A DNA stretch of 64,000 bases from Fibrobacter succinogenes (GCA_902779055.1 CACZAD010000008.1:1-64000), one strand, 5' to 3'. Positions 37,263 to 58,177 are shown, numbered from the stretch's first letter. Program-made: numbers and translations. The notes: a model not told the origin generated them from the letters alone.

Positions 37263-38423
37263 ATGAGTGGAATTATTAACTCAGTCGCGGACTTCGCCTC
37301 GAGCACAGGATTCGCGCAGATTACCGTTCCGATGGTAATCATGTGGATCGTGAGCTTCGTGTTGATGTTCCTTGCGATTGTCAAAAAATACGAACCGCTT
37401 CTGCTCTTGCCGATTGCTATCGGTGCACTTGCGGTGAACATCCCGTCCGTCGCGTTCTACGACGGTGGCTGGAGCATCGAAGGTATGTTCAGCCCGACTG
37501 GCGGTCTCTACTACTACATCAGCCAGGGTATCCATCTGGAACTCTTCCCGCCCATCATCTTCTTGGGCGTGGGTGCCATGACGGACTTTGGACCGCTTAT
37601 CGCTAATCCGCGTACGCTCATCCTTGGTGGTGGCGCACAGTTTGGCGTGTTCATGACCATGTTTGCAGCTGTCGCTCTCGGTGGCTTTACGCTCGGTGAA
37701 GCAGCTTCCATCGGTATCATCGGTGGTGCTGACGGTCCGACGTCCATCTTCACTGCGAACAAGCTTGCTAAGCACCTCATCGGCCCCATCGCCGTTGCTG
37801 CTTACACCTATATGGCTCTCGTGCCGCTCATCCAGCCGCCTATCATGCGCGCTATGACGAACGACGCCGAACGCAAGATTCGCATGAAGGCTCTCCGCCA
37901 GGTTTCCAAGGCCGAACGCATCGTGTTTGCCGTGATGGTGATGATCGTTTGCGTGCTCGTCGTGCCGGATGCTTCTGCCCTTATCATCATGCTTATGATG
38001 GGCAACATCTTCAAGGAAGCTGGTGTCGTCGATCGCCTCGTGAAGACTTCTTCGAACGAACTCATGAACATTGTGACGATCTTCCTCGGCACGTCCGTGG
38101 GTCTCACGATGTCTGCTGACATCTTCCTCAAGCCGCAGACTCTCATGATCATCGCTATGGGTGTGGTTGCCTTTGGCTTCTCCACTTTCGGCGGTTTGCT
38201 CCTCGCAAAGATCATGAACAAGTGCTCTCCGAAGAACCCGGTGAACCCGCTTATCGGTTCCGCAGGCGTTTCCGCTGTGCCGATGGCAGCCCGTGTTTCT
38301 CAGGTTGAAGGTGCCAAGTATGACCCGCAGAACTTCCTCCTCATGCACGCTATGGGCCCGAACGTCTCTGGCGTGATTGGTACGGCAGTTTGCGCTGGTT
38401 ATATGATCAGCCGCTTGAGCTAA
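37263..38423 (+). CDS. oadB: Na+-translocating decarboxylase beta subunit
   Basis: This 386-residue polytopic inner-membrane protein couples decarboxylation of carboxybiotin to Na+ export. Family motifs are GVGAMTDFGPLIANP, GEAASIGIIGGADGPTSIF (with the conserved aspartate), LVPLIQPPIMRAM, and the C-terminal NPLIGSAGVSAVPMAARVSQ and HAMGPNVSGVIGTAVCAG. The acid decarboxylated (oxaloacetate, methylmalonyl-CoA or glutaconyl-CoA) is set by the alpha subunit, which is not in this operon or window. The symbol is therefore tentative. It lies 14 nt after the biotin-carrier gene. Confidence 0.9.
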   Translation: MSGIINSVADFASSTGFAQITVPMVIMWIVSFVLMFLAIVKKYEPLLLLPIAIGALAVNIPSVAFYDGGWSIEGMFSPTGGLYYYISQGIHLELFPPIIFLGVGAMTDFGPLIANPRTLILGGGAQFGVFMTMFAAVALGGFTLGEAASIGIIGGADGPTSIFTANKLAKHLIGPIAVAAYTYMALVPLIQPPIMRAMTNDAERKIRMKALRQVSKAERIVFAVMVMIVCVLVVPDASALIIMLMMGNIFKEAGVVDRLVKTSSNELMNIVTIFLGTSVGLTMSADIFLKPQTLMIIAMGVVAFGFSTFGGLLLAKIMNKCSPKNPVNPLIGSAGVSAVPMAARVSQVEGAKYDPQNFLLMHAMGPNVSGVIGTAVCAGYMISRLS

Positions 38424-38439
38424 GATAATCGCGAGTATT

Positions 38440-38492
38440 GTCATTCCCGCCGGAGCCTGTGCTGAGCGCAGTCGAAGTAAGCGGGAATCTCC
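38440..38492. repeat. Dispersed GTCATTCCCGC repeat unit with insert
   Basis: Outer arms GTCATTCCCGC and GCGGGAATCTCC enclose GAGCCTGTGCTGAGCGCAGTCGAAG-type sequence. It is the intergenic form of the unit found inside the gene at 53221-53250. Confidence 0.75.
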
Positions 38493-38506
38493 ATCGCCTT
38501 TAAATT

Positions 38507-38535
38507 CCCTCGGCATTAAGCCGGGGGATTTTTTT
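38507..38535 (+). terminator. Terminator of the decarboxylase operon
   Basis: CCCTCGGC-ATTAA-GCCGGGGG is followed by TTTTTTT. It directly precedes the first regulator cassette. Confidence 0.85.
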
Positions 38536-38552
38536 GTTTTATAGAATTTAGT

Positions 38553-38628
38553 TTTTGTTCTTTAGATTTCTAAAATTTTTAATTGTATTTTAAAAGTGCT
38601 TAAATTTGCTTAAAAACGCCATTTTTGT
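38553..38628 (+). promoter_or_regulatory. Upstream region of cassette 1 regulator
   Basis: TTTAGATTTCTAAA (38561-38574) is an inverted repeat containing the TTCTAAA word found in cassettes 3 and 4. TAAAAACGCCATTTTTGT (38611-38628) matches the block at 50840 and resembles those at 44809 and 57255. The long palindrome of the other cassettes is not seen here, and the last 58 nt before the ATG are different (TATATGCG instead of TATATTTG). Confidence 0.45.
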
Positions 38629-38686
38629 TTTCGCGAAATATTTTTAAAACCTTGTGCGCTTATATGCGATTAAGTAAATTTATGTT

Positions 38687-39520
38687 ATGATGAAATCGGT
38701 TATTGAATACAAGAACTATCGCGAGTACGTCCTGGACTATTACCAGGAACGCAAGCGTTGTTCTGCGTTTACGTGGCGAGAATTTGCGAAGAACGCCGGC
38801 TTTGCTTCGGGTTCGTACTTGAAACTTGTGAGTGACGGAAAGACGCGCTTGCGTGAAGAAAGTGCGAAAAAGACTGCCCTTGCGATGGGTCTGGTGGGTT
38901 TTGAGTTTGATTATTTTGTCTTGATGGTCCGCTATGAAAATGCGAAGTCGGATCAAGAAAAGAAAAAGTGCTTTGAAGAAATGCAGGCGCTTGGTGATGC
39001 CAGCCGTGTGAAAATTCTCGGCAGCGAAATGTACACGTTCTATGAAACGTGGAAACACTCAGTTGTCCGCGAGTTGGCTGTGGCGATGCCGGGGGCTAAG
39101 CCGAACGAAATTGCAAAAGTTTGCAGGCCTTCGATTTCTGCGGCGGATGTGAGCGAAAGTCTGCATTTTCTTGTCAAGTCCGGACTCCTGAAACGTGATA
39201 TCAGGGGCCATTACCACCAGACGAGCCAATCGCTTTCGACGGGGCGCTTGAACGTGGTTGCCGTGGCAGTGCATTCGTTGTTGCGCCAGATGGGCGAATT
39301 TGCGCTGGACGCTCTGGACAAGCTTCCGATTTCGGAACGTCATTTTAGCGGGATCACGATGGGCGTGACGGAAGAAAGCTATACAAAGATTGTTGATGAA
39401 ATAGCGGCATTCCGCAAGCACATTGTGTCGATGGTCGCCGCCGAGAAAAATCCGGAAAAAATTTGCCGATTGAACTTTCAGTTTTTCCCGCTGACGGAAA
39501 AGATTAACGTAAACGCATGA
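38687..39520 (+). CDS. TIGR02147/DUF4423 regulator of cassette 1
   Basis: This 277-residue cytoplasmic protein belongs to the TIGR02147 family, first described in Fibrobacter and of unknown function. The N-terminal 75 residues look like a helix-turn-helix of the XRE type (FTWREFAKNAGFASGSYLKLVSDGK). The middle region (ISAADVSESLHFLVKSGLLKRD, about 155-180) looks like a winged helix. A conserved tail ends in RLNFQFFPLTEK. It overlaps the first lipoprotein gene as ATGA, so the two are coupled. It is the most divergent of the four regulators. A role as DNA-binding regulator of its cassette is inferred from fold and position. An ATG at 38690 is an equally good start. Confidence 0.85.
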   Translation: MMKSVIEYKNYREYVLDYYQERKRCSAFTWREFAKNAGFASGSYLKLVSDGKTRLREESAKKTALAMGLVGFEFDYFVLMVRYENAKSDQEKKKCFEEMQALGDASRVKILGSEMYTFYETWKHSVVRELAVAMPGAKPNEIAKVCRPSISAADVSESLHFLVKSGLLKRDIRGHYHQTSQSLSTGRLNVVAVAVHSLLRQMGEFALDALDKLPISERHFSGITMGVTEESYTKIVDEIAAFRKHIVSMVAAEKNPEKICRLNFQFFPLTEKINVNA

Positions 39521-44703: not shown

Positions 44704-44732
44704 CCTCGTTAGGAAACTAGCGAGGCTTTTTT
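44704..44732 (+). terminator. Terminator of cassette 1
   Basis: CCTCGTTAG-GAAA-CTAGCGAGG forms a 9-bp stem with a GAAA loop, followed by TTTTTT. The palindrome of cassette 2 begins at the end of this T-run. Confidence 0.9.
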
Positions 44733-44761
44733 ATGTTCTCAGAACATGTAGGGTATGTTCT
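44732..44761 (+). promoter_or_regulatory. Palindrome plus half-site, candidate operator of cassette 2
   Basis: ATGTTCT-C-AGAACAT (44733-44747) is a perfect 15-bp palindrome. TATGTTCT is repeated 22 nt downstream of the first copy (44754-44761). The same arrangement, with a different sequence, precedes cassettes 3 and 4. Confidence 0.6.
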
Positions 44762-44808
44762 GAAATGTTGAAAATTTTGAAAATACTGAAAAATTGGTAA
44801 AATTTTAC

Positions 44809-44856
44809 GAAAAACGCCAATTTTATGTCCTGAATGTACTAGAAAAGGTATATTTG
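44809..44856 (+). promoter_or_regulatory. Candidate promoter of the cassette 2 regulator
   Basis: CGAAAAACGCCAATTTTATG is followed about 20 nt later by TATATTTG (44849-44856), which matches the TAnnTTTG element. The regulator ATG begins exactly 5 nt later and no ribosome-binding site is present. Confidence 0.55.
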
Positions 44857-44861
44857 TACCT

Positions 44862-45686
44862 ATGAAGGAAATCGTTGAATATACGGATTATCGCAAGTAC
44901 ATCCAGGATTACTATGACGAACGCAAACGCACTTCGGCGTTTTCTTGGCATATGTTTGCACAGAAGGCGGGCTTTGCGTCGGATGTCTACTTGAAGTATG
45001 TTTGCGAGGGTAAGAAAAACCTGAGTGTCGGTTCTGCGGGTTCTGTCGCAAGCGCTATGGACCTTGCCGGTTTTGAACAGACTTATTTTGTCCTGATGGT
45101 TTCGTACGCCCATGCAAAAGATGACAAGACGAAGCGTGCCGCATTCGAGGAACGCTGTGCGCTTGCGAATGCCCACAAGATGCGTATTCTGGGGGATGAA
45201 GAGTTCAATTATTTTAAATCGTGGAAAAATTCTGTGATTCGAGAATTGGCTCCGCATATGCCCGGCGCAAAGCCTCTCGAAATGGCGCGTGCCTGCAAAC
45301 AAAAGATTTCTGCAACGGAAGTTTCCGAGACGCTTGACTTCTTGGTAAAAGCGAAACTTTTAAAAAAGGACAAGAATGGAAACTACCAGCAAACGGATAA
45401 GGCCATCAGGATGGCGCCTGTGGAGGCCGTTCCCTTGGCGGCCCGCGATTTGCAGCGCCAGATGGGTGAGTTTGCGATACAGTCACTGGATTTGCCAATT
45501 TCTGAACGTGTGATGTCGGGCTATACGCTTGGCCTTACGGAACGTGCTTACGAACGGATAAAAAAGGAAGTGGAGGAGTTCTACCGGCGTGTTGTCGCGA
45601 TTGCGACGGAAGAAGACGATACGGAGCGGGTTTACCGCTTGAATGTGCAGCTGTTCCCGATGAGCGAATGGTTGAATAAAAAATAA
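44862..45686 (+). CDS. TIGR02147/DUF4423 regulator of cassette 2
   Basis: This 274-residue protein is closely related to the regulators of cassettes 3 and 4. The opening EIVEYTDYRKYIQDYYDERKR is nearly invariant. A helix-turn-helix-like segment follows (FSWHMFAQKAGFASDVYLKYVCEGKKNLS), then a winged-helix-like segment (ISATEVSETLDFLVKAKLLKKDKNGNYQQTD) and the tail RVYRLNVQLFPMSEW. WHMF replaces the WREF of the other three. The ATG lies 5 nt after TATATTTG. The first lipoprotein of the cassette follows after 26 nt. DNA binding and autoregulation are inferred. Confidence 0.87.
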   Translation: MKEIVEYTDYRKYIQDYYDERKRTSAFSWHMFAQKAGFASDVYLKYVCEGKKNLSVGSAGSVASAMDLAGFEQTYFVLMVSYAHAKDDKTKRAAFEERCALANAHKMRILGDEEFNYFKSWKNSVIRELAPHMPGAKPLEMARACKQKISATEVSETLDFLVKAKLLKKDKNGNYQQTDKAIRMAPVEAVPLAARDLQRQMGEFAIQSLDLPISERVMSGYTLGLTERAYERIKKEVEEFYRRVVAIATEEDDTERVYRLNVQLFPMSEWLNKK

Positions 45687-45712
45687 ACGGGTTTAAATAC
45701 GGGTAAGAAGAA

Positions 45713-47737
45713 ATGAGATGGAATGTTTATAAAAAATTTAGGAACGGTCTAGCAAACGCATTGTCGATTGCCCTTACGACTGTTTTTATGGCGGGCTGCT
45801 CGAACGAAAACGTTGCTGGTGGCGCTTCGGGCGATGCCGGCGTTGTTTCGGGGGATACAGTGGACTGTGTGATCAAGAATCGTGAAATTGCGGGTGTGAC
45901 GCAGAAGGGCCCGTTCTTGACCGGTTCTTCGTTGACTGTCCAGGAACTTGATGGCGAGACTCTGGCCCAGACTGGAAAAAGCTTTAGGACGAGAGTGAAT
46001 AGCGATCAGGGCGATTTTGTGCTTGGTGGCGTAAGTCTTGTGTCGCCGTATGCCTTGCTGGAAGTGAACGGTTATTATCTGAATGAAGTCACTTGGGAAA
46101 AATCCGATGGAATGATTGCGTTAAATGCTCTTACGGACTTGTCGGACCGTAGCCATGTGAATGTGAACATTCTGACCCATTTGACGGTAGACCGTATTTT
46201 GACTTTGATACGACGCGATGGAAAAACATTTGCCGAAGCTAAAAAGCAGGCTGAAAGGGAAGTCTTGGAGTCCTTTGGCTTTACAGGCGTTATTGAAAGT
46301 AGTGAAGAATTGAATTTGTTTGAAGAAGGAAATGGCTTGGTACTGCTTGCTATATCGGTTCTAATGCAAGGTGAGAGGGCTGAAGCCGAGTTCTCTGAAC
46401 TTCTTGCGAAAGCGACCATTGCATTTGCTGATAGCGGAATCTGGAGTGGACCGGAAAAGGGTGAAGTTGCGGATTGGGCGTTCCTGACAGAAAAGGAATA
46501 TTGGGATGCAGGTCATAGTGCCACTAGGCCCTTAATCACCGAGATTAAGAAAAATGTGGAGTCTTGGAATGTGGACCCTTTGAAGAGGGAATATTATGCA
46601 GATTCTACTTTGGAAGTGTATATATATGATTTTTGGGTAAAAGAATATGGACTTGGTGAGTGTAGTGAAGAGAACTTGGGTGAAATACGTAATAATACAG
46701 ATGTATATAGCAAGTTCTATGATATGACGTTTAAATGCGATGGAGACTATCATAAGCATTGGATTTTGATGGGTGTCGCTGATCTTTCGAACTCCGATAC
46801 GTTTCGAATAGCTGATTTGCAAGAGGAAAAGACGTATAAGATGAAACGCTTTGGGGATACCTTTTGGATGACTGGCAATTTGCAGTATCGCTCAAAGCCT
46901 TGGAAAGGTGAGTATGAATCTGCATTGAAAATTTGCCCTGTAGGATCTCGTTTGCCTCGATATGACGAAGTTGAAAATTTGTTGTTGCAATATGGTGGTG
47001 CCGGGAAAAGTGTTGCTGATTCGTTAATGAAGGTGGATGGCTTCAATGCGCTGCAGGACGGGCTCTTTAGTATAGATTTTTGGTGGTATGATGAAAATGG
47101 CCTTAGACAAGAATATGAACAAAAGGGTGTCGCGATATGGATTTCGACGAAGGATATTTATTCTTATGAAAATTTTGTTTTATGGATTGATTCTGCAGGG
47201 GCTGAAATAAAACAGATTACTGACTATTTTTCTGGTGCTTCTGTTCGTTGTGTTGTTGGTCCAGAATCGGGTAAAAAACAGGATGCTCGTGAACAGAAAT
47301 AGTATAGTGAGGACAGCTACATAAAAGATGTGCGCGATGATGAAGTGTACCGTTTTACTGAAATAGATGGCAAATATTGGTTGGCGGAAAACCTGCGCTA
47401 TAGAGAACCTGTGCTGGATGCTTCGATGTGCGATAATGATGGCTGCCGATATTCATGGCTTGAGGCTGTAGGCTCTGATTCCGCTTACAATGTATGTCCC
47501 GAAGGTTGGCGTCTCCCTAGCAGGACGGATTGGGGAGAATATGATCCGTATGATTTTAGTGTGAAGCCTTCTGGTAATACTGGATTTTGGACAAGTTCTG
47601 ATACCACGTATGTGGTACAATACGGTGATGGATATGCCGAAGGAGCCTGGATGATTGATTTACGTGATAAAGATGCTGGAGTGTGGCTTAAAGAAAAACT
47701 GAATCGTTATTCTGTTCGCTGCGTAAAGGATAAATAG
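45713..47737 (+). pseudogene. Cassette 2 lipoprotein A, interrupted by an in-frame TAG
   Basis: The reading frame from 45713 encodes a lipoprotein (lipobox FMAGCSNE) with the complete shared module (IAGVTQKGPFLTGSSLTVQELD) and the first Fib_succ domain, then stops at TAG 47300-47302 after 529 residues. The same frame continues to 47737 with a second domain: YWLAENLRY, VCPEGWRLPSRTDW, FWTSSDTT, YSVRCVKDK. The intact paralogue at 39517 has CAG (Gln) where this gene has TAG. The second domain has also lost about 50 residues after RTDWGE compared with that paralogue. The first 529 residues could still be made and exported. Confidence 0.82.
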
Positions 47738-47748
47738 GGAGGCTGGGT

Positions 47749-49239
47749 ATGAAAAAAAGGATGTTGCTCTTTTTGCTTGCTTTGGAAATAGTGCTTTTGG
47801 CGTGTTCCGGTGGTGATGTTGCGGGAGGCGCTTCGGGTGATGCGGGCGTCGTTGCGATCAAGGATCGTAAAATCGCAGGTGTTACGCAGAAGGGTCCCTT
47901 CTTGACGGGATCTTCGGTGACGATCCAGGAACTCGATGGACAAACCCTAGTCCAAACAGGGAAAAGCTTTAAAGCTTTTGTAAAAAACAATCAGGGTGAT
48001 TTCGCCATCAAGGATGTAAGCCTTGTTTCCCAATATGCGTTGCTAGAAGTTGAAGGCTATTTTCGAAACGAAATTACAGGAAAAAATTCTGATGGAATCA
48101 TTCAATTAAACGCCTTGACGGATTTGAGAAAACGTAATCATGTGAACGTGAACTTGCTTACACATCTTGAAGCGGGTCGAATTCTTAATCTTGTTCAAAA
48201 ACATGGGCTTTCCGTTGAAGTCGCAAAAAAACAAGCTGAACAGGAACTTTTTACGTCTTTTGGATTCATGAATGAAAATACAGTTCCAGAAGATATGGAT
48301 ATTTTTTCGGAAAAAAATGGTGGTGCGATGCTGCTTGCTGTAAGTGTGCTGATGCTGCAAGACAGTTCGTCGGAGGCGGATTTCTCGGAACGGATGTCTA
48401 AAGTCGCTTTTTCTTTTGCCGAGAACGGAATGTGGTCGGGAACGGATAGAGCGGAAATTGCGGATTGGGCCGTGTATTCCGAAGTTGCAAATGGTTCTGA
48501 TTTAAGTGTGCTGCAAAGAGTTCGGAAAAATCTGGAATCCTGGAATGAGTCTGTCCCTCCGTTTGAGACGTATATCAACCTTTTTTGGTCTAACGAATAT
48601 GGTTTGGGTCCGTGTAGTGATGCAAACTTTCATAAGGTTCGTCCTAACATAAATGAAAATAGCTTGTTTTATCTGGATGAGTTCGTGTGTAACTCGAATC
48701 ACCGCTGGAGCTTGATTGCGTATCGAGAAAATGCAGGCGATCTCAATGTTGCTGGAGTTTATTGGGCGCCTAGAAATGTTGGATGTGAAAAACAGCAGTC
48801 CTTAAGTGGATATTATCCAGGTTCTGATATGGCTTTAAAGAGGGAAAAAATGGTAAAAAAACAGTGTATTGTTTATGGCGGGTACTTTTATGCATATGAA
48901 GCTTCGAGTGTGTGTCCGGATGGATATCGGTTGCCGACGCGCGAAGAAGCTCAGGCATTGATAGATGCGTACGGCGGAAGTGAAATGGCGGCCGTTGGCC
49001 TGCAATCTGTAGATGGCTTTGCTGCAGTGAAGGGCGGTCGTATTGCGAGGGTGGCGTATGGCTTGGATTATACGAATAACATTGCAGAAGAATATAAGTC
49101 TGTTCACGATGTTGGCGAATTTTGGACGTCGACCTCAGAATCGGAACCCCGTTACTTTTTGAATATCGGCTCGAATGGAGCTTTCGTTGATGGAGGTGAT
49201 TATAGTCGTCGGTCTGTTCGTTGCGTAAGGAACTTTTAA
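47749..49239 (+). CDS. Cassette 2 lipoprotein B, one Fib_succ_major domain
   Basis: This 496-residue lipoprotein (lipobox VLLACSGG) is the counterpart of the gene at 41666. The shared module has IAGVTQKGPFLTGSSVTIQELD, VSLVSQYALLEVEGYFRNEITG, LLAVSVLMLQDSSS and FETYINLFWSNEYGLGPC. The Fib_succ domain has VCPDGYRLPTREEAQALIDAYGG, EFWTSTSES and RSVRCVRNF. GGGAGG precedes the ATG by 7 nt. Identity with its counterpart is high up to the middle of the C-terminal domain and then falls sharply, with insertions and deletions around the FWTS segment. Confidence 0.88.
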   Translation: MKKRMLLFLLALEIVLLACSGGDVAGGASGDAGVVAIKDRKIAGVTQKGPFLTGSSVTIQELDGQTLVQTGKSFKAFVKNNQGDFAIKDVSLVSQYALLEVEGYFRNEITGKNSDGIIQLNALTDLRKRNHVNVNLLTHLEAGRILNLVQKHGLSVEVAKKQAEQELFTSFGFMNENTVPEDMDIFSEKNGGAMLLAVSVLMLQDSSSEADFSERMSKVAFSFAENGMWSGTDRAEIADWAVYSEVANGSDLSVLQRVRKNLESWNESVPPFETYINLFWSNEYGLGPCSDANFHKVRPNINENSLFYLDEFVCNSNHRWSLIAYRENAGDLNVAGVYWAPRNVGCEKQQSLSGYYPGSDMALKREKMVKKQCIVYGGYFYAYEASSVCPDGYRLPTREEAQALIDAYGGSEMAAVGLQSVDGFAAVKGGRIARVAYGLDYTNNIAEEYKSVHDVGEFWTSTSESEPRYFLNIGSNGAFVDGGDYSRRSVRCVRNF

Positions 49240-49256
49240 AAAAGGAGGATAATCAG

Positions 49257-50693
49257 ATGAAAAAGATGACTTTGTTTGTGCAGTTTGTTGTTCTCTGTTT
49301 GTTTTGCGGATGTTCTTCGGAAAATCCAATGGAGTTTCCAGGAGTAGGAACGCATTTTGACGGAACCGTTGATGGCGTTTCGCAAAAAGGTCCTTTTTTG
49401 ACGGGATCCACGGTAACCCTTCAGGAACTTGATGCGAAATCCTTGGAACAGACTGGAAAAAGTTTTAAGGGAAAGATTACGAATGATAAAGGTGAGTTCG
49501 CGGTCGATAATGTTAATCTGGACTCTCCGTATGGACTGCTTGTGGCCAATGGGTATTTCCGTAATGAGGTGACGGGGAAAAAATCGAGTGGAACGATAAC
49601 TTTGATGGCATTTGCGGATTTATCGAACCGTTCTCATGTGAATGTCAATTTGCTGACCCATTTGGAATATGGGAGAGTTCGTGTGTTGCTGGATCAAAAG
49701 AAAATGTCTTTCGTAAAGGCCAAAAATAAGGCGGATCAGGAAATTTTCTCAAACTTTTTTGATATGTCTATTTCTGAAAAAGCCGAAAACTTGAGTATTT
49801 TTGAGGATAGCGAAGGGGGCAGGGCTCTGCTCGCGATAAATGTCCTTTTGTTGGGAAATTTAAGTGAATCGGAATTTATGGAACGTTTGATTGCGTTAGG
49901 CGATGATTTTGCCCGTGATGGCGTTTGGAACGATGCCCTTCTCAAGACGAAAATCGCGGATTATGCTTGTGGATTGAGTGTATGGGGCGAACTTCTGGAA
50001 ATTCGCAAGAATATGGAAGCCTGGAAAATTGCCGATGTCCCGGCGTTTGAACCTTATGTGAATCGTTTTTGGGCGGACCAGTATGGCCTTGGAACATGCG
50101 ATGCTTCGAATGTGGGTGAACGTAAGAAGAATGCGAATGAAACTAGTGTTTTCTATGGCATGAATTTTATCTGTGACAAGGATAGCGGATGGGTTGCTAA
50201 TAAGAATGAATTATCTGTGATGTGGGATCACCGTGATGGCCATATCTATAAATATATGAATATAGATGGAACGGATTGGATGACGTCAAATCTCAGGTAT
50301 GACAACGGGGATTTTGAATGCTTCCTCGGAAACTGCGAGGATTATGGTTATCTCTATAAAGATCCTGGAGTATGGAGAACTTTTTTAGAAAGCAATTACG
50401 GTAACCCTGCTGGTATATGCCCTAGTGGCTGGCGTATTCCTGTATTTGAGGATTATGAACATTTGAAAAAATATGCTTCTGAAAATGACATAAAACCGCT
50501 TTTCTCGGAAGCTGAAAGGAACATCATTTTGGCGTCAGGGGTTGATTCGACTTCTTATTGGCTTGGGGATGTTGCGGTATCACAGCGGTATGGAGAACGG
50601 CGTCAAGCCTTGGATGTGTATCGTAGTGGTCGTTTTTATTTTCATGTGAAAAAAAGGGGTGATGCCGTCTTTGTCCGTTGCGTCAGAGATTAG
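49257..50693 (+). CDS. Cassette 2 lipoprotein C, one Fib_succ_major domain
   Basis: This 478-residue lipoprotein (lipobox LFCGCSSE) is nearly a copy of the gene at 43208. AAAGGAGG 10 nt upstream decides the start. The shared module begins GVSQKGPFLTGSTVTLQELD and includes LTHLEYGRVRVLL, ALLAINVLLLG and VPAFEPYVNRFWADQYGLGTC. The Fib_succ domain has GTDWMTSNLRYDNGD, GICPSGWRIPVFEDYEHL, SYWLGDVAVS and FVRCVRD. A stretch of about eight residues present in the copy at 43208 (YGGCDSCS) is missing here. It closes cassette 2. Confidence 0.88.
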   Translation: MKKMTLFVQFVVLCLFCGCSSENPMEFPGVGTHFDGTVDGVSQKGPFLTGSTVTLQELDAKSLEQTGKSFKGKITNDKGEFAVDNVNLDSPYGLLVANGYFRNEVTGKKSSGTITLMAFADLSNRSHVNVNLLTHLEYGRVRVLLDQKKMSFVKAKNKADQEIFSNFFDMSISEKAENLSIFEDSEGGRALLAINVLLLGNLSESEFMERLIALGDDFARDGVWNDALLKTKIADYACGLSVWGELLEIRKNMEAWKIADVPAFEPYVNRFWADQYGLGTCDASNVGERKKNANETSVFYGMNFICDKDSGWVANKNELSVMWDHRDGHIYKYMNIDGTDWMTSNLRYDNGDFECFLGNCEDYGYLYKDPGVWRTFLESNYGNPAGICPSGWRIPVFEDYEHLKKYASENDIKPLFSEAERNIILASGVDSTSYWLGDVAVSQRYGERRQALDVYRSGRFYFHVKKRGDAVFVRCVRD

Positions 50694-50734
50694 TAATGAG
50701 GCTGGTGCCAACAAATTGTTAGGAGAAAAATGTT

Positions 50735-50762
50735 GCCTCCGCCGGAATGGCGGAGGCTTTTT
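50735..50762 (+). terminator. Terminator of cassette 2
   Basis: GCCTCCGCC-GGAAT-GGCGGAGGC is followed by TTTTT. The palindrome of cassette 3 starts 2 nt later. Confidence 0.9.
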
Positions 50763-50763
50763 C

Positions 50764-50792
50764 TGTGTTCCTGGAATACATCTTTGTGTTCT
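50764..50792 (+). promoter_or_regulatory. Palindrome plus half-site, candidate operator of cassette 3
   Basis: TGTGTTCC-T-GGAATACA (50764-50780) has 8-bp arms with one mismatch. The half-site TGTGTTCT recurs 21 nt downstream (50785-50792) and is followed by AAAG and a second TTCTAAAA. Confidence 0.6.
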
Positions 50793-50838
50793 AAAGTTCT
50801 AAAATTTGCATTATTTCTGCAAATATGGTAAAATTTGA

Positions 50839-50888
50839 CTAAAAACGCCATTTTTGTATTCTGAAAACTGCGGAAATGTCTATATTTG
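50839..50888 (+). promoter_or_regulatory. Candidate promoter of the cassette 3 regulator
   Basis: CTAAAAACGCCATTTTTGTA is followed 24 nt after TTTTTG by TATATTTG (50881-50888). The regulator ATG begins exactly 5 nt later, with no ribosome-binding site. Confidence 0.55.
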
Positions 50889-50893
50889 TACAC

Positions 50894-51793
50894 ATGAAGG
50901 AGATCGTAGAATACACAGACTACCGCAAGTTCATCCAGGACTACTACGATGAACGCAAGCGAAGCTCGGCTTTTACGTGGCGCGAGTTTGCCCGTGATGC
51001 GGGATTTTCGTCGGCTGTGTATTTGAAGTACGTTTGCGAGGGCAAAAAGAATCTGAGTGTAGGGTCGGCGGGGTCCGTTGCTGCGGCGATGGGACTTGCC
51101 GGGTTCGAGCAGACGTACTTTGTCTTGATGGTTTCGTATGCGCATGCCAAAGATGACAAGGCGAGACGTGCCGCGTTCGAAGAACGTTGTGCGCTCGCGC
51201 ATGCCCACAAGGTGCGTGTGCTCGGGAACGAGGAATTCGATTATTTCAAGTCGTGGAAGAATCCGGTGCTGCGCGAGATTGCTCCGCATATGCCGGGTGC
51301 AAAGCCTCTTGAAATGGCTCGTAAGTGCAAGCCGCAGATTTCTGCGGCGGAGGTTTCCGAGACGCTTGACTTTTTGGTGCGCGCGAAGCTCTTGAAGAAG
51401 GACAAGAGCGGAAACTACGAACAGACGGACAAGTCGTTATCGATGGGGTCGGTCGATGTAGCGCCTGTGGCGGCCCGCGATATGCAACGTCAGATGGGGG
51501 AATTTGCGGTGAAGGCTTTGGACCTGCCGCTATCGGAACGTGACATGTCGGGGCTTACCATGGGGCTTACGCGCCGTGCTTACGAAAAAATCAGGAAGGA
51601 AATTGCGGATTTTCGCCGCCGCATTGTGGCGATTGCCAGTGAGGACGATGAGACGGATCAGGTGTACCGCCTGAATTTGCAGTTGTTCCCGCTGAGCGAA
51701 CGTCTTGGCGATGAATCGACACGCTCGGTTTCGGGTGAAGGTGTTGAAAAAAGAAAGGAGAAAGGTGATGAAGTCCGTCGTAAAAGTTTTTGA
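50894..51793 (+). CDS. TIGR02147/DUF4423 regulator of cassette 3
   Basis: This 299-residue protein has the family layout: EIVEYTDYRKFIQDYYDERKR, a helix-turn-helix-like segment (FTWREFARDAGFSSAVYLKYVCEGKKNLS), a winged-helix-like segment (ISAAEVSETLDFLVRAKLLKKD) and the tail QVYRLNLQLFPLSERL. It has a charged C-terminal extension (VEKRKEKGDEVRRKSF) that results from overlap with the next gene. I chose the ATG 5 nt after TATATTTG. An in-frame ATG at 50876 would place the promoter element inside the gene. Its last 26 nt overlap the lipoprotein gene, so the two are coupled. Confidence 0.87.
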   Translation: MKEIVEYTDYRKFIQDYYDERKRSSAFTWREFARDAGFSSAVYLKYVCEGKKNLSVGSAGSVAAAMGLAGFEQTYFVLMVSYAHAKDDKARRAAFEERCALAHAHKVRVLGNEEFDYFKSWKNPVLREIAPHMPGAKPLEMARKCKPQISAAEVSETLDFLVRAKLLKKDKSGNYEQTDKSLSMGSVDVAPVAARDMQRQMGEFAVKALDLPLSERDMSGLTMGLTRRAYEKIRKEIADFRRRIVAIASEDDETDQVYRLNLQLFPLSERLGDESTRSVSGEGVEKRKEKGDEVRRKSF

Positions 51794-54692
51794 TTTGTTC
51801 TTAGCGCTCGCTCTTGCTATGTTGATGGCGTCGTGTTCCGACGACAAGATGGCGGGCGGCACTACAGAAGATGCGGGAATTATCGCAAACTTGGATGTGG
51901 CGGGGCTTGCGCAAAAGGGACCGTTTGTCAAGGGCTCTGTCGTGACGGTGCAGGGCGTGAATTGCAAGACGATGGAATTCACGGACGAAGTTTTCGAAGG
52001 CTCCGTGAAAAACAACGATGGTGAATATGTTGTTGAAAATGTGAACTTGTCTGTTGCTTGCGCTCTGCTTGAAGTGACCGGCTATTACCTCAATGAAAAT
52101 ACCGGCAAAAAATCGACGGGCGAGATTACGCTCCATACGCTGACGGATTTGAGCGGCAGGGAATCTGTGAACATCAACGTGTTCACGGAACTGGAATACA
52201 AGCGCGTGATGAAGCTCGTCACCGAAAAGAAGAAGTCTTTTGCGGATGCCAAAAAGCAGGCCGAAAAGGAAGTGCTTGCGGCGTTTGACGTGAAAGGCGA
52301 TTTTGTTCCGTTCGAAGATTTGGATATTTTTGAAAACGGTAAAGACGATGTTGCTCTCCTTGATGTGAGCGTGATACTGCAGGCGGATTTGGACGCTACG
52401 GAACTTGCTGAACGCTTGGAAAACATTGCTGCCGACATCGCGAAAGATGGCAAATGGGATGACCGTAGCTCTGTCATTCCCGCCTCGTCATCCTCGACCG
52501 AAGGGAGGGAATCCAATAGCAGTATAAAAGACACTTACCTGAATCCTGGCATTGCTTACGGCGAAATGACCGACTCCCGTGACGGACAAGTTTACAAGAC
52601 TATAAAGATTGGGGAGCAGGTTTGGATGACGCAAAATTTGAACTATGAAGCGGCGACCAGTTATTGCTACAATGATAGTACGGAATATTGCGAAAAGTAT
52701 GGCCGGTTGTACACTTGGGCTGCGTCGGTGGACAAGTCGGAGAAAGAGTGCGGACTCGGAAACGAATGCAATCTGGCGTCTGGGAATATTCGAGGTATTT
52801 GCCCCGATGGCTGGTATTTGCCTAGCGAAGATGATTTCGAGACTTTAATCAAGGCCGTGGGTGGCGAAAAAGGTGCCGGCGCTAAACTGAAGTCTTTGAG
52901 TGGCTGGCATGACGATGATGGTGAAAGTGGCAACGGCACTGACGCATTCGGATTCTCGGCACTGCCTGTTGGCGTCGGTATGCAGGGCTATTACGGTGAG
53001 GGCTACAATACGCATTTCTGGGGCTCTACGGAGTGCGGTACCGGGAATGCTGCAGATAAAGGTTACAGCTGTGCGTCTATAATGAGCTTGGACTATGACG
53101 ATGTCGACGTGAGCTTGAGGAGCTACGCTGCTAAGGACTTCAAGTTTTCTGTCCGCTGCATCAAGGAAGATGGTGAATTTGTTCCGGTGTCCAGCAGCTC
53201 TGTCATTGCGAACTCTAGCTCTGTCATTCCCGCCTCGAGCGGGAATCTCCCTTCTTCGTCATCCTTGACCGAAGGGAGGGGATCCAGTGACAGTCTCGTT
53301 AACGCTTACCTGAATCCTGACGTCGAATACGTCGAAATGACCGACCCCCGTGACGGACGCGTTTACAAAGTTGCATACATAGATCGACGATATTGGATGG
53401 CCGAAAACTTGGACTATGCCGACAGCGTTAATATGCCGAGCCTTAAAGGCCGCAGCTGGTGCTACCAGAACAAGCCTGAAAATTGTGCAACGATGGGACG
53501 CCTTTACTCGTGGGCGGCCGCAATAGATTCCTTGAAGTTGGCGGCAGATGACAAGGATTGTGGTGCTGGAAAAACTTGTGGGCTTAGAGGCCCTGTGCAG
53601 GGTGTTTGCCCCGATGGTTGGCATCTGCCGACTAAGGTCGAATGGGTGGATATGTGGGAGGCTATTGCAGGGAACGAAGCCTGGAACGTGGCGGGGAGTT
53701 TGCTCAAGTCCAAAACGGGCTGGAATAACGATGCAAATGGTTCCGATGATTATGGCTTTTCTGCTGCTCCGGCTGGATTCAAGGCGGGTGCTGCTTATGG
53801 ATACTTTGGGGAATATGCACGCTTTTGGAGCTCTACGGAGAATGAGGAAGCGGAAAATGGTACCGCTTCGTCTAACAGAAATGCTTACAATGTCATCTAT
53901 GGCCTCAAGGATGATCCGCAATTGAGCGGCGATGACAAGGCTTATGGAATGTCGGTTCGTTGTGTTGCCAATGATGGACGCCTGGACTGGACTGTCCCTA
54001 AAGAATCTTATCTGAATCCTGACATTGACTATGGTGAACTGACGGATTCCCGTGATGGGCAAGTTTATAAGACCGTGAAAATTGGCAATCAGACTTGGAT
54101 GGCGCAGAACCTGAACTATGCTGATAGCGTTAAAACGCCGAGTCTCAAGGGAAATAGCTGGTGCTTCGGTGATAAGCCGAAACGCTGTAATGTTGGAGGT
54201 CGCTTGTACACTTGGGCGGCGGCGATTGATTCTGTGGGTCTTGCGAAGGATCCTGATAATCCGAGAGATTGCGGTAAAAATAAGGAATGTCCATTTACTG
54301 AAAGTGTCCATGGAATTTGCCCGGATGGCTGGCACCTGCCTTCGAAAGCGGAATTCGATACGCTGGTTGCTACTGTGGGTGGTAAAGAAATAGCGGAACT
54401 GAACCTTCGCTCTAGAATTGGCTGGTCTCTTTATGAAACGGGTTCTGATAGTTATGGTTTTTCTGCAATCCCTGTGGGGCGTCGCCTTAATGATAAAGAA
54501 AGCGGAAATGTGGAGTATCTGTTTTCGGGACTTGCTGTAGATTTTTGGAGCTCGAGTGAATGTTATACTGGCACAGAACCAAGTTCGACTATGATGGTGT
54601 ATGTATTACGCGTATATGATGACCAAAATTCATCCCCCGTGGTGATCGTGGGCAAAGGTGCTGGATATTCTGTCCGCTGCCTAAAAGACTAG
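51768..54692 (+). CDS. Cassette 3 lipoprotein, three Fib_succ_major domains with repeat-derived linkers
   Basis: This is a 974-residue lipoprotein (lipobox MLMASCSD) with AAAGGAG before the ATG. The N-terminal module (GLAQKGPFVKGSVVTVQGVN, about residue 44 onward) is shortened and ends near DGKWDDRS (about 235). Three Fib_succ domains follow (about 260-465, 515-735 and 745-974). They have GICPDGWYLPSEDDF, GVCPDGWHLPTKVEW and GICPDGWHLPSKAEF, and end SVRCIKED, SVRCVAND and SVRCLKD. The linkers SSVIPASSSSTEGRES and SSVIPASSGNLPSSSS are encoded by the dispersed GTCAT repeats. Multiple lectin-like domains on a membrane anchor suggest a surface binding role, which is inference. Confidence 0.87.
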   Translation: MKSVVKVFDLFLALALAMLMASCSDDKMAGGTTEDAGIIANLDVAGLAQKGPFVKGSVVTVQGVNCKTMEFTDEVFEGSVKNNDGEYVVENVNLSVACALLEVTGYYLNENTGKKSTGEITLHTLTDLSGRESVNINVFTELEYKRVMKLVTEKKKSFADAKKQAEKEVLAAFDVKGDFVPFEDLDIFENGKDDVALLDVSVILQADLDATELAERLENIAADIAKDGKWDDRSSVIPASSSSTEGRESNSSIKDTYLNPGIAYGEMTDSRDGQVYKTIKIGEQVWMTQNLNYEAATSYCYNDSTEYCEKYGRLYTWAASVDKSEKECGLGNECNLASGNIRGICPDGWYLPSEDDFETLIKAVGGEKGAGAKLKSLSGWHDDDGESGNGTDAFGFSALPVGVGMQGYYGEGYNTHFWGSTECGTGNAADKGYSCASIMSLDYDDVDVSLRSYAAKDFKFSVRCIKEDGEFVPVSSSSVIANSSSVIPASSGNLPSSSSLTEGRGSSDSLVNAYLNPDVEYVEMTDPRDGRVYKVAYIDRRYWMAENLDYADSVNMPSLKGRSWCYQNKPENCATMGRLYSWAAAIDSLKLAADDKDCGAGKTCGLRGPVQGVCPDGWHLPTKVEWVDMWEAIAGNEAWNVAGSLLKSKTGWNNDANGSDDYGFSAAPAGFKAGAAYGYFGEYARFWSSTENEEAENGTASSNRNAYNVIYGLKDDPQLSGDDKAYGMSVRCVANDGRLDWTVPKESYLNPDIDYGELTDSRDGQVYKTVKIGNQTWMAQNLNYADSVKTPSLKGNSWCFGDKPKRCNVGGRLYTWAAAIDSVGLAKDPDNPRDCGKNKECPFTESVHGICPDGWHLPSKAEFDTLVATVGGKEIAELNLRSRIGWSLYETGSDSYGFSAIPVGRRLNDKESGNVEYLFSGLAVDFWSSSECYTGTEPSSTMMVYVLRVYDDQNSSPVVIVGKGAGYSVRCLKD
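52473..52514 (+). repeat. Dispersed repeat inside a coding region, copy 1
   Basis: GTCATTCCCGCCTCGTCATCC through to GAAGGGAGGGAATCC is the same family as the intergenic units at 5944 and 38440. It is in frame and encodes SVIPASSSSTEGRESN between the N-terminal module and the first Fib_succ domain. Confidence 0.75.
53202..53285 (+). repeat. Dispersed repeats inside a coding region, copy 2
   Basis: Three units are fused: GTCATTGCGAA, the full hairpin GTCATTCCCGC...GCGGGAATCTCC, and GTCATCCTTGACCG...GGGAGGGGATCC. All are read through in frame as the linker between Fib_succ domains 1 and 2. Confidence 0.75.
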
Positions 54693-54715
54693 TGTTTGAA
54701 AAAAGGAGAAGGAAA

Positions 54716-57124
54716 GTGAAAGGATTCATAAGTAAATCAATTACTTTGTTTGTGGCGATTGCTTCGGCGGGGATGCTGTCGGCTTGCCTGGATGATAAAG
54801 TTGCGGGCGGCGTCACGGAAGATGCTGGGCTTGCCATCAAGGACTTGAATGTGGCTGGCTTGGCGCAAAAGGGCCCGTTCGTCAAGGGTTCTGTGGTGAC
54901 GGTGCAGGGTGTGGATTGCAAGACGATGAAGTTCACGGATGAAGAATTTACGGGCAAAGTCAAGAGCAACAAGGGCGACTTTGGCGTTGATGATGTGAAT
55001 CTCTCGGCGACTTGCGCGTTGTTCGCTGTGTCCGGTTATTACATGAATGAATTTACCGGTGAACAGTCTTCGGACAAGTTGACGCTCCATGCGATTACGG
55101 ATTTGAAGGACCGCAAGCACGTGAACATCAACGTGCTCACGGAATTGGAATACGAGCGCGTGATGAAGCTTGTCTCCAAGGAAAAGATGTCCTTTGACGA
55201 TGCGAAAATGCAGGCCGAAAAGGAAATCCTCACGGCGTTGGGCTTGGTGGATCGTTTTGAATCATTCGAAGGGTTGAACATCTATGAAAAGGGCGACGGA
55301 AACGCGACGCTCCTTGCGACGAGCGTAACATTGCAAGCGGATTTGGATGCGAAAAAGCTCACGGAACGTTTGGATGGCTTTGCCTCGTCCATCACGGAAA
55401 GTGGCGAATGGGACGACGAAAAGACGAAGAAGGAAATGGCCGATTGGGCGGATTCTGCAAAGTCCGATGGCAAATACGAAACGATTCGCGACAATCTTGA
55501 AAAATGGAGCGACTCCGATGAAATCCCCGACTTTGAAAAGGTTGTCGACGAAATAAATAAGGATGCCGATAAGAATGCCAAGGATTCTACTCAGAAAATC
55601 TCTGAAGGCTGGAGCTGGGATGTGCCGCAGTCCGCTCGCCTGAATCCGAATGTCAAATACGACACGATGATCGACCCGCGCGACAAGCAAGTGTATAAGG
55701 TCGTGAAAATTGAAGTGAAGGATCAGGACTATTCGCATGTGTGGATGGCGGAAAACCTGAACTATGCCGATAGCGTGAAGACGCCGAGTTTGAAGGGCAG
55801 AAATTGGTGCTATAATGGTGAAGAGAAAAATTGCAAGGTGGGTGGCCGTTATTACAGCTGGTCTGCCGCAATTGACTCTGTTGCTTTGGCAAATGATCCA
55901 AAGGATCCGCTGGATTGCGGCTTTGGCAGAATTTGCGGGCTCAATCGTGGTGTCCAGGGAATTTGCCCTGATGGCTGGCATTTGCCGACAATTCATGAAT
56001 GGGGCTTGCTGAGCGTGGCTTTAGGAAATGCAGGCGTTGCTGGTGATTCGCTTAAGGCACTGACCGGATGGGACTATGCCGGAACGGCTGACAACAATGG
56101 TCAAGATGCCTATGGATTCTCTGCCCTCCCGACCGGAAGACGAATTTCTGAGACTAGCTGGGAAAAGGTGGGCTCGGATGTTTATTATTGGAGCTCAAAC
56201 GAAAGTGGTGAGAATCTTGCCCGGTATTCGAATATAAACAACATTTATACCAAGTTCTATTTGTACCAAAATTTGAAAACTTACGGACAGAGCGTGCGTT
56301 GCATCAAGGGCGATGCTTCGACTGCCGCGATAAAGTCTTCATCAAGTTCAAGTGTCGTTGAAGCGAAGTCTAGCAGCAGTTCTGTTGTAAGATCAAGTAG
56401 TTCTGGAACCTCTACAGAATGGAGCTGGGATGTTTCCAAGGAAAAGCGCCTGAATCCGAATATCAAGTACGATTCCATTGTGGATTCCCGCGACAAGCGT
56501 GTGTATAAAGTCGTGAAGATTGAAGTGAAGGAACATGATTATTCAAAGGTGTGGATGGCGGAGAACCTGAACTATGATGATAGCGTCAAGACTCCGAGCT
56601 TGAAGGGGAATAGTTGGTGCTACCACGATACCACGAAATATTGCGATGTGGGTGGTCGCTATTACACTTGGGCGGCGGCGATTGATTCTGTTGCCTTGGC
56701 GAATGATTCGAAGGAACCGCTGGATTGTGGTTATGGCAAAACTTGCGGACTTGATCGCCAGATTCAGGGAATTTGCCCTGACGGATGGCACTTGCCGTCG
56801 AATGATGAATGGGGCAAGTTGAGTGTCGCTTTGGGGAACGCGGGCGTGTCTGGCGATTCGCTCAAGGCGCTGACCGGATGGAATTATGCTGGAACGGATG
56901 ACAACAATGGTCAAGATGCCTATGGATTCTCGGCGCTCCCGACCGGAAGACGAATTTCTGAGACTAGCTGGGAAAAGGTGGGCTCGGATGTCTATTATTG
57001 GAGTTCCAATGAATATAGTGAGAGTTATGCCCGGTATTCGAACATAAACAACATTTACACCAAGTTCTATTTGTACCAAAATTCAAAAAAATATGGACAA
57101 AGCGTTCGCTGCGTGAAGGATTAA
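54716..57124 (+). CDS. Cassette 3 lipoprotein, two near-identical Fib_succ_major domains
   Basis: This 802-residue lipoprotein (lipobox MLSACLDD) starts at a GTG with AAAGGAG 9-15 nt upstream. An in-frame GTG at 54692 would overlap the previous stop. The shared module (GLAQKGPFVKGSVVTVQGVD) runs to about 300, with LTELEYERVMKLV and TLLATSVTLQADLDAKKL. A linker with many charged residues follows. The two Fib_succ domains (about 310-530 and 570-802) are joined by SSSSSVVEAKSSSSSVVRSS. Both have VWMAENLNY, GICPDGWHLP and an almost identical NGQDAYGFSALPTGRRISE block. The gene closes cassette 3. Confidence 0.88.
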   Translation: MKGFISKSITLFVAIASAGMLSACLDDKVAGGVTEDAGLAIKDLNVAGLAQKGPFVKGSVVTVQGVDCKTMKFTDEEFTGKVKSNKGDFGVDDVNLSATCALFAVSGYYMNEFTGEQSSDKLTLHAITDLKDRKHVNINVLTELEYERVMKLVSKEKMSFDDAKMQAEKEILTALGLVDRFESFEGLNIYEKGDGNATLLATSVTLQADLDAKKLTERLDGFASSITESGEWDDEKTKKEMADWADSAKSDGKYETIRDNLEKWSDSDEIPDFEKVVDEINKDADKNAKDSTQKISEGWSWDVPQSARLNPNVKYDTMIDPRDKQVYKVVKIEVKDQDYSHVWMAENLNYADSVKTPSLKGRNWCYNGEEKNCKVGGRYYSWSAAIDSVALANDPKDPLDCGFGRICGLNRGVQGICPDGWHLPTIHEWGLLSVALGNAGVAGDSLKALTGWDYAGTADNNGQDAYGFSALPTGRRISETSWEKVGSDVYYWSSNESGENLARYSNINNIYTKFYLYQNLKTYGQSVRCIKGDASTAAIKSSSSSSVVEAKSSSSSVVRSSSSGTSTEWSWDVSKEKRLNPNIKYDSIVDSRDKRVYKVVKIEVKEHDYSKVWMAENLNYDDSVKTPSLKGNSWCYHDTTKYCDVGGRYYTWAAAIDSVALANDSKEPLDCGYGKTCGLDRQIQGICPDGWHLPSNDEWGKLSVALGNAGVSGDSLKALTGWNYAGTDDNNGQDAYGFSALPTGRRISETSWEKVGSDVYYWSSNEYSESYARYSNINNIYTKFYLYQNSKKYGQSVRCVKD

Positions 57125-57142
57125 TTTTTCGTTCTCATCATC

Positions 57143-57177
57143 CCGAGGCCTCGCTATTCACGGCGGGGTCTTTTTTT
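57143..57177 (+). terminator. Probable terminator of cassette 3
   Basis: CCCGAGGCCTCG...CACGGCGGGG can fold into an imperfect hairpin and is followed by TTTTTTT. The stem is weaker than at the other cassettes. The palindrome of cassette 4 begins within the T-run. Confidence 0.5.
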
Positions 57178-57204
57178 GTATCCCAGGGATACAACTTGTA
57201 TTCT
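57176..57204 (+). promoter_or_regulatory. Palindrome plus half-site, candidate operator of cassette 4
   Basis: TTGTATCCCAGGGATACAA (57176-57194) is a perfect 19-bp palindrome. The half-site TTGTATTCT recurs 20 nt downstream of the first half (57196-57204) and is followed by AAA. Confidence 0.65.
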
Positions 57205-57252
57205 AAATTTTTGTGTATTTTGTTTAAAAATGGCTAAAAACGTAAAAATTGA

Positions 57253-57302
57253 GCTAAAAACGGCTATTTTTGTATTCCAATATTATTGAAAAGCTATATT
57301 TG
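57253..57302 (+). promoter_or_regulatory. Candidate promoter of the cassette 4 regulator
   Basis: GCTAAAAACGGCTATTTTTG is followed 22 nt later by TATATTTG (57295-57302). The regulator ATG begins exactly 5 nt after it, with no ribosome-binding site. Confidence 0.55.
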
Positions 57303-57307
57303 TAATC

Positions 57308-58177
57308 ATGAGGGCGATTGTTGAATATACAGATTATCGCAAGTTCATTCAGGATTACTATGATGAACGCAAACGCGACTCCGCTTTTACCTGGCGTGAG
57401 TTTGCCCAGAATGCCGGTTTTGCGTCGGCAGTTTTTTTGAAGTATGTTTGTGAAGGGAAAAAGAATCTTAGCATCAGTGCCGCAAGTTCTGTCGCAAATG
57501 CGATGGGCCTTGCCGGATTCGAAAAGACGTATTTTGTTCTGATGGTGACGTACGCCCATGCAAAAGGGGACGAGGCCAAAATGGCGGCATTCGAAAAACG
57601 CTGTGCGTTGGCGAGGGCGCATAAGATCCGTGTTCTCGGTGGCGATGAATTTGATTACTATAAGTCCTGGAAAAATCCGTTGCTCCGCGAGCTTGCCCCG
57701 CATATGCCTGGTGCAAGGCCTGCCGAATTGGCCCGTGCGTGTAAACCGAAAATTTCAACAGCAGAAGTCGTTGAAACGCTTGAATTTTTGGAAGATGCAA
57801 ATCTCCTGAAAAAAGACCGGGAAGGGAATTATGTGCAGACGGACAAGTCCATTTCGATGGGCTCCGTGGATGCCGTGCCGATTGCCGCAAAGGATTTGCA
57901 GCGCCAGATGGGCGAGCTTGCCGTGAAGGCTTTGGACTTGCCGCTTGCGGAACGCTCCATGTCGGGAGTTGTATTGGGGCTGACGCAGGATGCCTACGAA
58001 CGGATCAAGAAGGAACTTTTGGAATGCCGTCGCCGCATTATTGCGATCGCCACGGAAAGCAGCGAAACGGAGCGCGTGTACCGCTTGAATTTGCAGTTGT
58101 TCCCGATAAGTGAACGGATTGGCCAATGCGAAGAAAATAAAGTGAGTGGAGTTGGTAAAAATGAAATGGGACGTTAA
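57308..58177 (+). CDS. TIGR02147/DUF4423 regulator of cassette 4
   Basis: This 289-residue protein has the same layout as the regulators at 44862 and 50894: AIVEYTDYRKFIQDYYDERKR, a helix-turn-helix-like segment (FTWREFAQNAGFASAVFLKYVCEGKKNLS), a winged-helix-like segment (ISTAEVVETLEFLEDANLLKKD) and the tail RVYRLNLQLFPISERI. The winged-helix region differs more from the other two than the N-terminus does. The stop lies 17 nt inside the following lipoprotein gene, so translation is coupled. A role as cassette regulator is inferred. Confidence 0.87.
   Translation: MRAIVEYTDYRKFIQDYYDERKRDSAFTWREFAQNAGFASAVFLKYVCEGKKNLSISAASSVANAMGLAGFEKTYFVLMVTYAHAKGDEAKMAAFEKRCALARAHKIRVLGGDEFDYYKSWKNPLLRELAPHMPGARPAELARACKPKISTAEVVETLEFLEDANLLKKDREGNYVQTDKSISMGSVDAVPIAAKDLQRQMGELAVKALDLPLAERSMSGVVLGLTQDAYERIKKELLECRRRIIAIATESSETERVYRLNLQLFPISERIGQCEENKVSGVGKNEMGR

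Follow-up and report, generated by a model that had tools for sequence, protein, structure and literature searches.

Operators of constant layout and paralog-specific sequence before TIGR02147/DUF4423 genes of Fibrobacter succinogenes: putative looping autoregulators

The window analysed here, a stretch of 64,000 nucleotides (nt) from Fibrobacter succinogenes (GCA_902779055.1 CACZAD010000008.1:1-64000), contains tandemly duplicated cassettes in which a gene of the TIGR02147/DUF4423 family, here called the regulator, stands before open reading frames (ORFs) that mostly start with lipoprotein-type signals and mostly have FISUMP (Fib_succ_major) domains; in cassette 2, the ORFs at 47330, 47749 and 49221 match Fib_succ_major, the last below cut-off. 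The operator sites that precede the regulators of cassettes 2-4 are the subject of this study (Table 1). These regulators score 307-353 bits with TIGR02147 (cut-off 50, NCBIfam) and match over their whole length above the NCBIfam and Pfam cut-offs, and DUF4423 is present in 85 of 85 aligned family members. The genome (3.88 Mb) has about 34 TIGR02147 genes and also carries the TIGR02145 and Fib_succ_major families, and TIGR02147, a family annotated without function, was found in 71 of the 81 genomes sampled across the phylum.

No match of the regulators to the HTH_3/XRE Pfam model was obtained: Pfam gave DUF4423 alone, plus a weak CYNS_N in nine members. A helix-turn-helix (HTH) profile match of residues 23-72 to 3kxa was found (E-value 0.007), with a weak one to C.BclI (2b5a, E-value 0.75), while a fold search with the model reached SinR (1b0n) at an E-value of 0.5 and the search with the whole regulator model gave no significant full-length match. 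As the XRE/HTH_3 family models do not match, the regulators are termed Cro/CI-like and are not filed as Cro/CI (XRE) members. The AlphaFold model (predicted local distance difference test, pLDDT, 87.5) has its HTH helices at residues 29-36 (first) and 43-48 (second), residue 30 lying at the start of the first, and the DUF4423 part includes a winged-helix-like segment.

We were able to identify, before each of the three regulators, a palindrome of two convergent half-sites (site A) followed by a direct copy of the left half-site (site B). A preliminary description of this DNA had placed the palindromes at 44733, 50764 and 57176, where all three are found, and had the left half-site recurring 20-22 nt downstream; the distances from the palindrome start are in fact 22, 21 and 20 nt in cassettes 2, 3 and 4. 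It was also right to limit the palindrome to these cassettes, as cassette 1 has degenerate copies only: upstream of its regulator (start 38690; Arg30, 50% identical to that of cassette 2), positions 38420-38690 hold TGTT-type repeats of this kind and nothing closer. In the genome, the degenerate palindrome YRTRTYCYNRGRAYAYR has four sites (versus two for the reversed control pattern), three of which are the palindromes of cassettes 2-4; the fourth (contig C8, 82037) lies within a coding ORF and was taken as chance. The composite of palindrome, N2-5 and half-site has exactly three matches in the genome, all before cassettes 2-4, and the control none. The palindromes of cassettes 2-4 are exactly placed and not due to chance.

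Table 1. Sites and genes of cassettes 2-4 (positions counted from the first nucleotide of the window)
Feature	Start	End	Strand	Sequence or remark
Cassette 2 site A	44732	44748	+	TATGTTCT-C-AGAACATG, two convergent half-sites, 1-nt centre; ATGTTCT-C-AGAACAT at 44733-44747; site conserved in orthologs
Cassette 2 site B	44754	44761	+	TATGTTCT, direct half-site
Cassette 2 linker	44762	44823	+	Predicted bent DNA, with A-tracts in phase at about 10 bp; power 6.8 versus 1.2 shuffled, p=0.01
Cassette 2 site C	44824	44831	+	TATGTCCT, half-site over -35 position
Cassette 2 -10 element	44849	44854	+	TATATT(TG), 13 nt before ATG
Cassette 2 regulator	44862	45686	+	TIGR02147/DUF4423, His30, A-type operator
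Cassette 2 downstream genes	45713	50693	+	ORFs 45713, 47749 and 49221 with lipoprotein-type signal, 47330 without
Cassette 3 site A	50764	50780	+	TGTGTTCC-T-GGAATACA
Cassette 3 site B	50785	50792	+	TGTGTTCT
Cassette 3 linker	50793	50854	+	Phased A-tracts; power 8.6 versus 1.1, p=0.005
Cassette 3 site C	50855	50862	+	TGTATTCT, over -35 position
Cassette 3 -10 element	50881	50886	+	TATATT(TG)
Cassette 3 regulator	50894	51793	+	TIGR02147/DUF4423, Arg30, G-type operator; start 50894 by family model and orthologs, not 50876
Cassette 3 downstream genes	51705	57124	+	Two large Fib_succ_major (FISUMP) proteins, lipoprotein-type signals
Cassette 4 site A	57177	57193	+	TGTATCCC-A-GGGATACA; extends 1 base each side (57176-57194) as TTGTATCCC-A-GGGATACAA
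Cassette 4 site B	57197	57204	+	TGTATTCT
Cassette 4 linker	57205	57270	+	Phased A-tracts; power 9.2 versus 1.2, p=0.005
Cassette 4 site C	57271	57278	+	TGTATTCC, over -35 position
Cassette 4 -10 element	57295	57300	+	TATATT(TG)
Cassette 4 regulator	57308	58177	+	TIGR02147/DUF4423, Arg30, G-type operator
Cassette 4 downstream gene	58146	59747	+	Fib_succ_major protein, lipoprotein-type signal

A fourth half-site (site C), absent from the preliminary description, overlaps the promoter of the regulator itself, at the -35 region, in all three cassettes, 70-74 bp downstream of B. It is followed by a -10 element, TATATT; of the 99 relatives having that hexamer, 98 have it 13 nt upstream of the ATG. 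This distance would put the transcript start at the start codon (44849-44864, 50881-50896 and 57295-57310), and the regulator mRNAs of cassettes 2-4 are probably leaderless; matches to TATATTTG with a downstream ATGA in the own genome most commonly have 5-6 nt between the two (17 of 33 matches, 7 of these TIGR02147 genes). A Bacteroidetes-type promoter with C as the -33 TTTG element was considered and rejected, given the 24-nt spacing to TATATTTG, the ATG-class sites without TTTG and the TTGAC-17-TATATT promoters of other paralogs.

Comparison of relatives bore out the proposal that the layout is constant and the sequence differs. We collected 102 distinct upstream regions from same-genus genomes, whose regulators share 66% identity or more with the cassette 2 regulator (the window's subfamily), and the alignment of upstream regions that had been suggested as a check found the array in 102 of 102. 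Its order is A-left, A-right (the palindrome, with its 1-nt centre), B at 20-22 nt after the start of A, an AT-rich linker of 62-66 nt, C, the -10 element and ATG. A lies 130-132 nt before ATG in 98 of the loci, and B 68-74 bp before C in 100. These 98 main-layout loci use 18 combinations of spacings, every one of which sums to 130-132 (variance 0.46, versus 4.2 when permuted, p=5e-5), which suggests that the total length of the operator matters and that insertions and deletions are either purged or compensated. Among the exceptions, A and C have moved together by about one helical turn in L142 (A to ATG 141, C to ATG 49), the palindrome is doubled in L148 and L153, where C stands 49-50 nt before ATG, and L164 is shifted by 13.

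In the window, terminator-like stems end at 44725, 50757 and 57172 and, as had been described, the palindrome touches the terminator, starting 0 nt (cassette 2) or 1 nt (cassette 3) after the T-run or inside it (cassette 4). The palindromes might on this account be parts of terminators or RNA hairpins and not protein sites, and that of cassette 4 does score as a weak terminator-like hairpin. The relatives contradict this: a hairpin with a T-run ending at most 4 nt from A is present in 62 of the 102 loci, and the other 40 keep A without one. B and C, moreover, are direct single half-sites, and the sequence follows the protein, so that we give this explanation hardly any credence. Contact with the terminator as a functional part of the operator was likewise rejected as not general; perhaps it results from tight packing of the cassettes.

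Beyond the window's subfamily, the distance between B and C persists. In a second subfamily, made up of regulators with 65-100% identity to L011 (L011 type), B and C have another core (TATATTGT, TGTATTGC, TTTATTGT) and are mostly 71-73 bp apart; the leaders are here long and carry GGAGG instead. Paralogs of the own genome with unrelated half-sites have B-C distances of 70 (L007), 73 (L012), 71 (L013), 71 (L016), 73 (L017), 70 (L020) and 71 bp (L023), and L022 has 60 bp, one turn less; in L015 and L024 the distance does not fit. Other genera of the same family show 71-74 bp (L282-L288, L303, L304). The C sites of ten other own-genome paralogs and of ten loci in other genera were picked by eye. 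Further away, among TIGR02147 members of about 25-39% identity, most of them from other families, no clear B-C pair was found, except perhaps in L293 at 78 bp, and the layout is therefore claimed for the closer clade only. Two separated copies of a site in conserved helical phase are expected of looping, and the 70-74 bp between B and C hold across subfamilies and genera, the exceptions shifting by about one turn. In five own-genome paralogs, B is preceded at 2-3 nt by a divergent partner, corresponding to A-right/B of the window, which indicates that the wider unit is a divergent pair at B plus C, to which the convergent palindrome adds an arm. The palindrome of the preliminary description, real in the window's subfamily, is thus an addition of that subfamily and not the unit by itself, the family-wide constant being B and C 70-74 bp apart. 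The regulators of the second subfamily (L174-L262, e.g. contigs G071:C3 and G048:C26) also occur in tandem, up to five per contig and about 3 kb apart, so that amplification of cassettes is not confined to the window.

Could the similarity reflect no more than the common descent of duplicated promoters, with no function? Relatedness among the 102 loci, and the tandem duplication of the cassettes, would agree with this. Nevertheless, changes in the half-sites are common to A, B and C while their surroundings diverge, the spacing persists in paralogs and genera with an unrelated half-site, and the composite occurs nowhere else in the genome, which makes this explanation very improbable.

In the linker between B and C, A-tracts follow one another at a centre-to-centre distance of mostly 10 bp. 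Over the 102 linkers, the AA/TT power at 9.5-10.5 bp is 7.7, versus 1.2 in shuffled sequences and 1.2 off-band, and phasing reaches p<=0.05 individually in 98% of them, in 63% of subfamily 2 and in 40% of the ten other own-genome paralogs, with 18% of AT-rich window pieces reaching it as a control; these are related and not independent sequences, but the same signal is seen in separate subfamilies. Phased A-tracts are known to bend DNA, and on this ground the linker is predicted to be bent. Looping calls for bendable or bent DNA between the sites, and phasing near 10 bp is of that kind. We also noticed a block, GGTAAAATTT..nTAAAAACG (also GGTAAAATTT..TAAAAACG), common to operators of different half-site type (44800-44823, 50830-50854, 57230-57270 and relatives), where a common protein or the polymerase may make contact.

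The half-sites appear to be matched to the protein encoded next to them. C agrees with the A/B of its own locus in 6.46 of 8 letters, a value that none of 10,000 permutations reached, and with those of other loci in 5.66 +- 0.09; these sequences themselves supplied the consensus by which A, B and C were placed, but that consensus makes no distinction between A and G at the second base. This second base is A in 37 loci and G in 65 loci of the window's subfamily, and residue 30 is the most informative of all alignment columns of the whole protein: Arg30 goes with G (65/65) and His30 or Gln30 with A (37/37). In subfamily 2, where the register was anchored on the core with the second base left free (29 loci without the core and three doubtful ones left out), Arg30 goes with G (14/14), Gln30 mostly with A and Pro30 with T (13/14), and nearly all Gln30 proteins with G have Arg at residue 41 (SSR replacing SSP). 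In another genus, L285 combines a Gly30 protein with base A. Counting Arg at residue 30 or 41 over 189 loci, we find 101 with Arg and G, 4 with Arg and another base, none without Arg and with G, and 84 with neither (A or T). The association agrees in 6 of 6 independent tree pairs (p=0.031). Cognate recognition, in which the regulator of each paralog would read its own operator, is well supported by these comparisons, and so is the proposal of three related regulators each with its own operator, given the array in all relatives, the match of C to its own A/B and the base that tracks residue 30.

Two further observations concern this code. In L091 and L108 (with 0.3 kb upstream), operator and HTH are of A-type and the protein bodies group with G-type paralogs; they are probably recombinants with the breakpoint behind the HTH, operator and HTH travelling together against the protein body. 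At the inner half-site base (position 7), C occurs with EGKKNLS and G with EGRFNLS (residues 51-53) across two subfamilies, and TGTATTC with EGKKNLS again in L282, of another genus; this pairing possibly represents a second code position.

One other shared regulator or nucleoid protein might instead read all the sites, the TIGR02147 genes being mere targets, and the likeness of the block GGTAAAATTT..TAAAAACG across operator types would fit something shared binding there. A shared reader would keep one sequence, whereas the half-sites differ between neighbouring paralogs of one genome and track residue 30 of the adjacent gene; we consider this possibility improbable.

The TIGR02147/DUF4423 proteins are likely, in our view, to be Cro/CI-like autoregulators, each of which recognises the operator before its own gene and, across bent DNA, connects a distal array with a half-site in the promoter. 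Each gene would be preceded by its own operator, with a paralog-specific 8-bp half-site read by the N-terminal Cro/CI-like HTH, and in the window's subfamily three upstream half-sites (A-left, A-right and B) would act with the fourth (C) over the -35. The bent A-tract linker would let protein bound at A/B contact protein at C on the same DNA face, and autoregulation would cover the regulator gene and, probably, the lipoprotein genes behind it. As to its sign, we lean slightly towards negative autoregulation through a short loop (repression). The best -35 match in the window's subfamily is 2-3 of 6, no better than in random AT-rich DNA, and C fills the -35 place in every main-layout locus. It lies 24-28 nt upstream of the -10; other members have it further upstream by about one turn. 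A poor -35 occupied by C is compatible with activation or with occlusion. Lambda CI recruits RNA polymerase at PRM, and the regulator could likewise activate, C replacing the missing -35, the bound protein recruiting RNA polymerase and A/B serving as a high-affinity loading array. Activation seems rather unlikely to us: the promoter of subfamily 2 is near consensus (-35 4-5/6 plus TATATT, with C about 12 bp further upstream), which favours repression and hardly needs an activator though the operators are of the same kind, and the poor -35 may merely be the cost of overlapping a half-site. Mixed control or another reader takes what probability repression and activation leave.

Several points weigh against the favoured explanation. 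C consists of one half-site, and for a dimer to fill it the help of A/B would be needed. Four Arg loci break the base rule (GTACAC-type sites of uncertain register), and Arg41 was added to the code after the fact. The HTH codons and the operator are neighbours, inheritable as one block, so that part of the covariation could be linkage. The constant total length could also mean that half-sites were moved by substitution where insertions and deletions are rare, and phased A-tracts alone could serve promoter strength.

No mention of TIGR02147 was found in the open-access papers searched, nor any among them that has Fibrobacter and DUF4423 together; DUF4423 is named in one, in a table entry for Bdellovibrio Bd3700 (PMC12546842). 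The present analysis predicts a role, an operator and a partial recognition code for TIGR02147/DUF4423, which is a large family in the lineage of Fibrobacter, a degrader of cellulose in the rumen, and has no described function there, as well as the promoters that would drive the FISUMP lipoprotein cassettes. A paralog-specific address with a residue-linked base suggests how near-identical switches avoid cross-talk, and the system offers an unusually clean natural experiment on the insulation of recent paralogous regulators, in which the geometry is fixed, the address changes and one residue predicts the base. Tentatively, the lineage may possess a natural library of looping autoregulators, many in each genome and insulated from one another, built on one rigid DNA geometry and a simple residue-to-base code, with each surface-lipoprotein cassette switched independently, possibly one at a time. 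Such operators and regulators could supply orthogonal switches.

Cro/CI (XRE) autoregulators include lambda CI, the 434 repressor and the C proteins of restriction-modification systems. The regulators described here resemble them in the N-terminal HTH, weakly XRE-like by sequence profile, in the palindromic half-sites before their own gene and in the sites beside or over the -35, but differ in the extra half-site 70-74 bp away across phased A-tracts, in the DUF4423 part with its winged-helix-like segment and in number, a genome having dozens of paralogs with a different half-site for each. Lac, Gal and AraC are looping repressors with distal and promoter-proximal sites; sites about 70-95 bp apart, constant spacing and shifts of about one helical turn are shared with them, and looping is on these grounds predicted here, whereas the paralog-specific half-sites and the built-in phased A-tract linker set the present operators apart. 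The components, namely Cro/CI-like autoregulation, looping and phased A-tracts, are known; what appears to be new, in the light of the open-access papers searched, is that they are combined, and on such a scale across paralogs.

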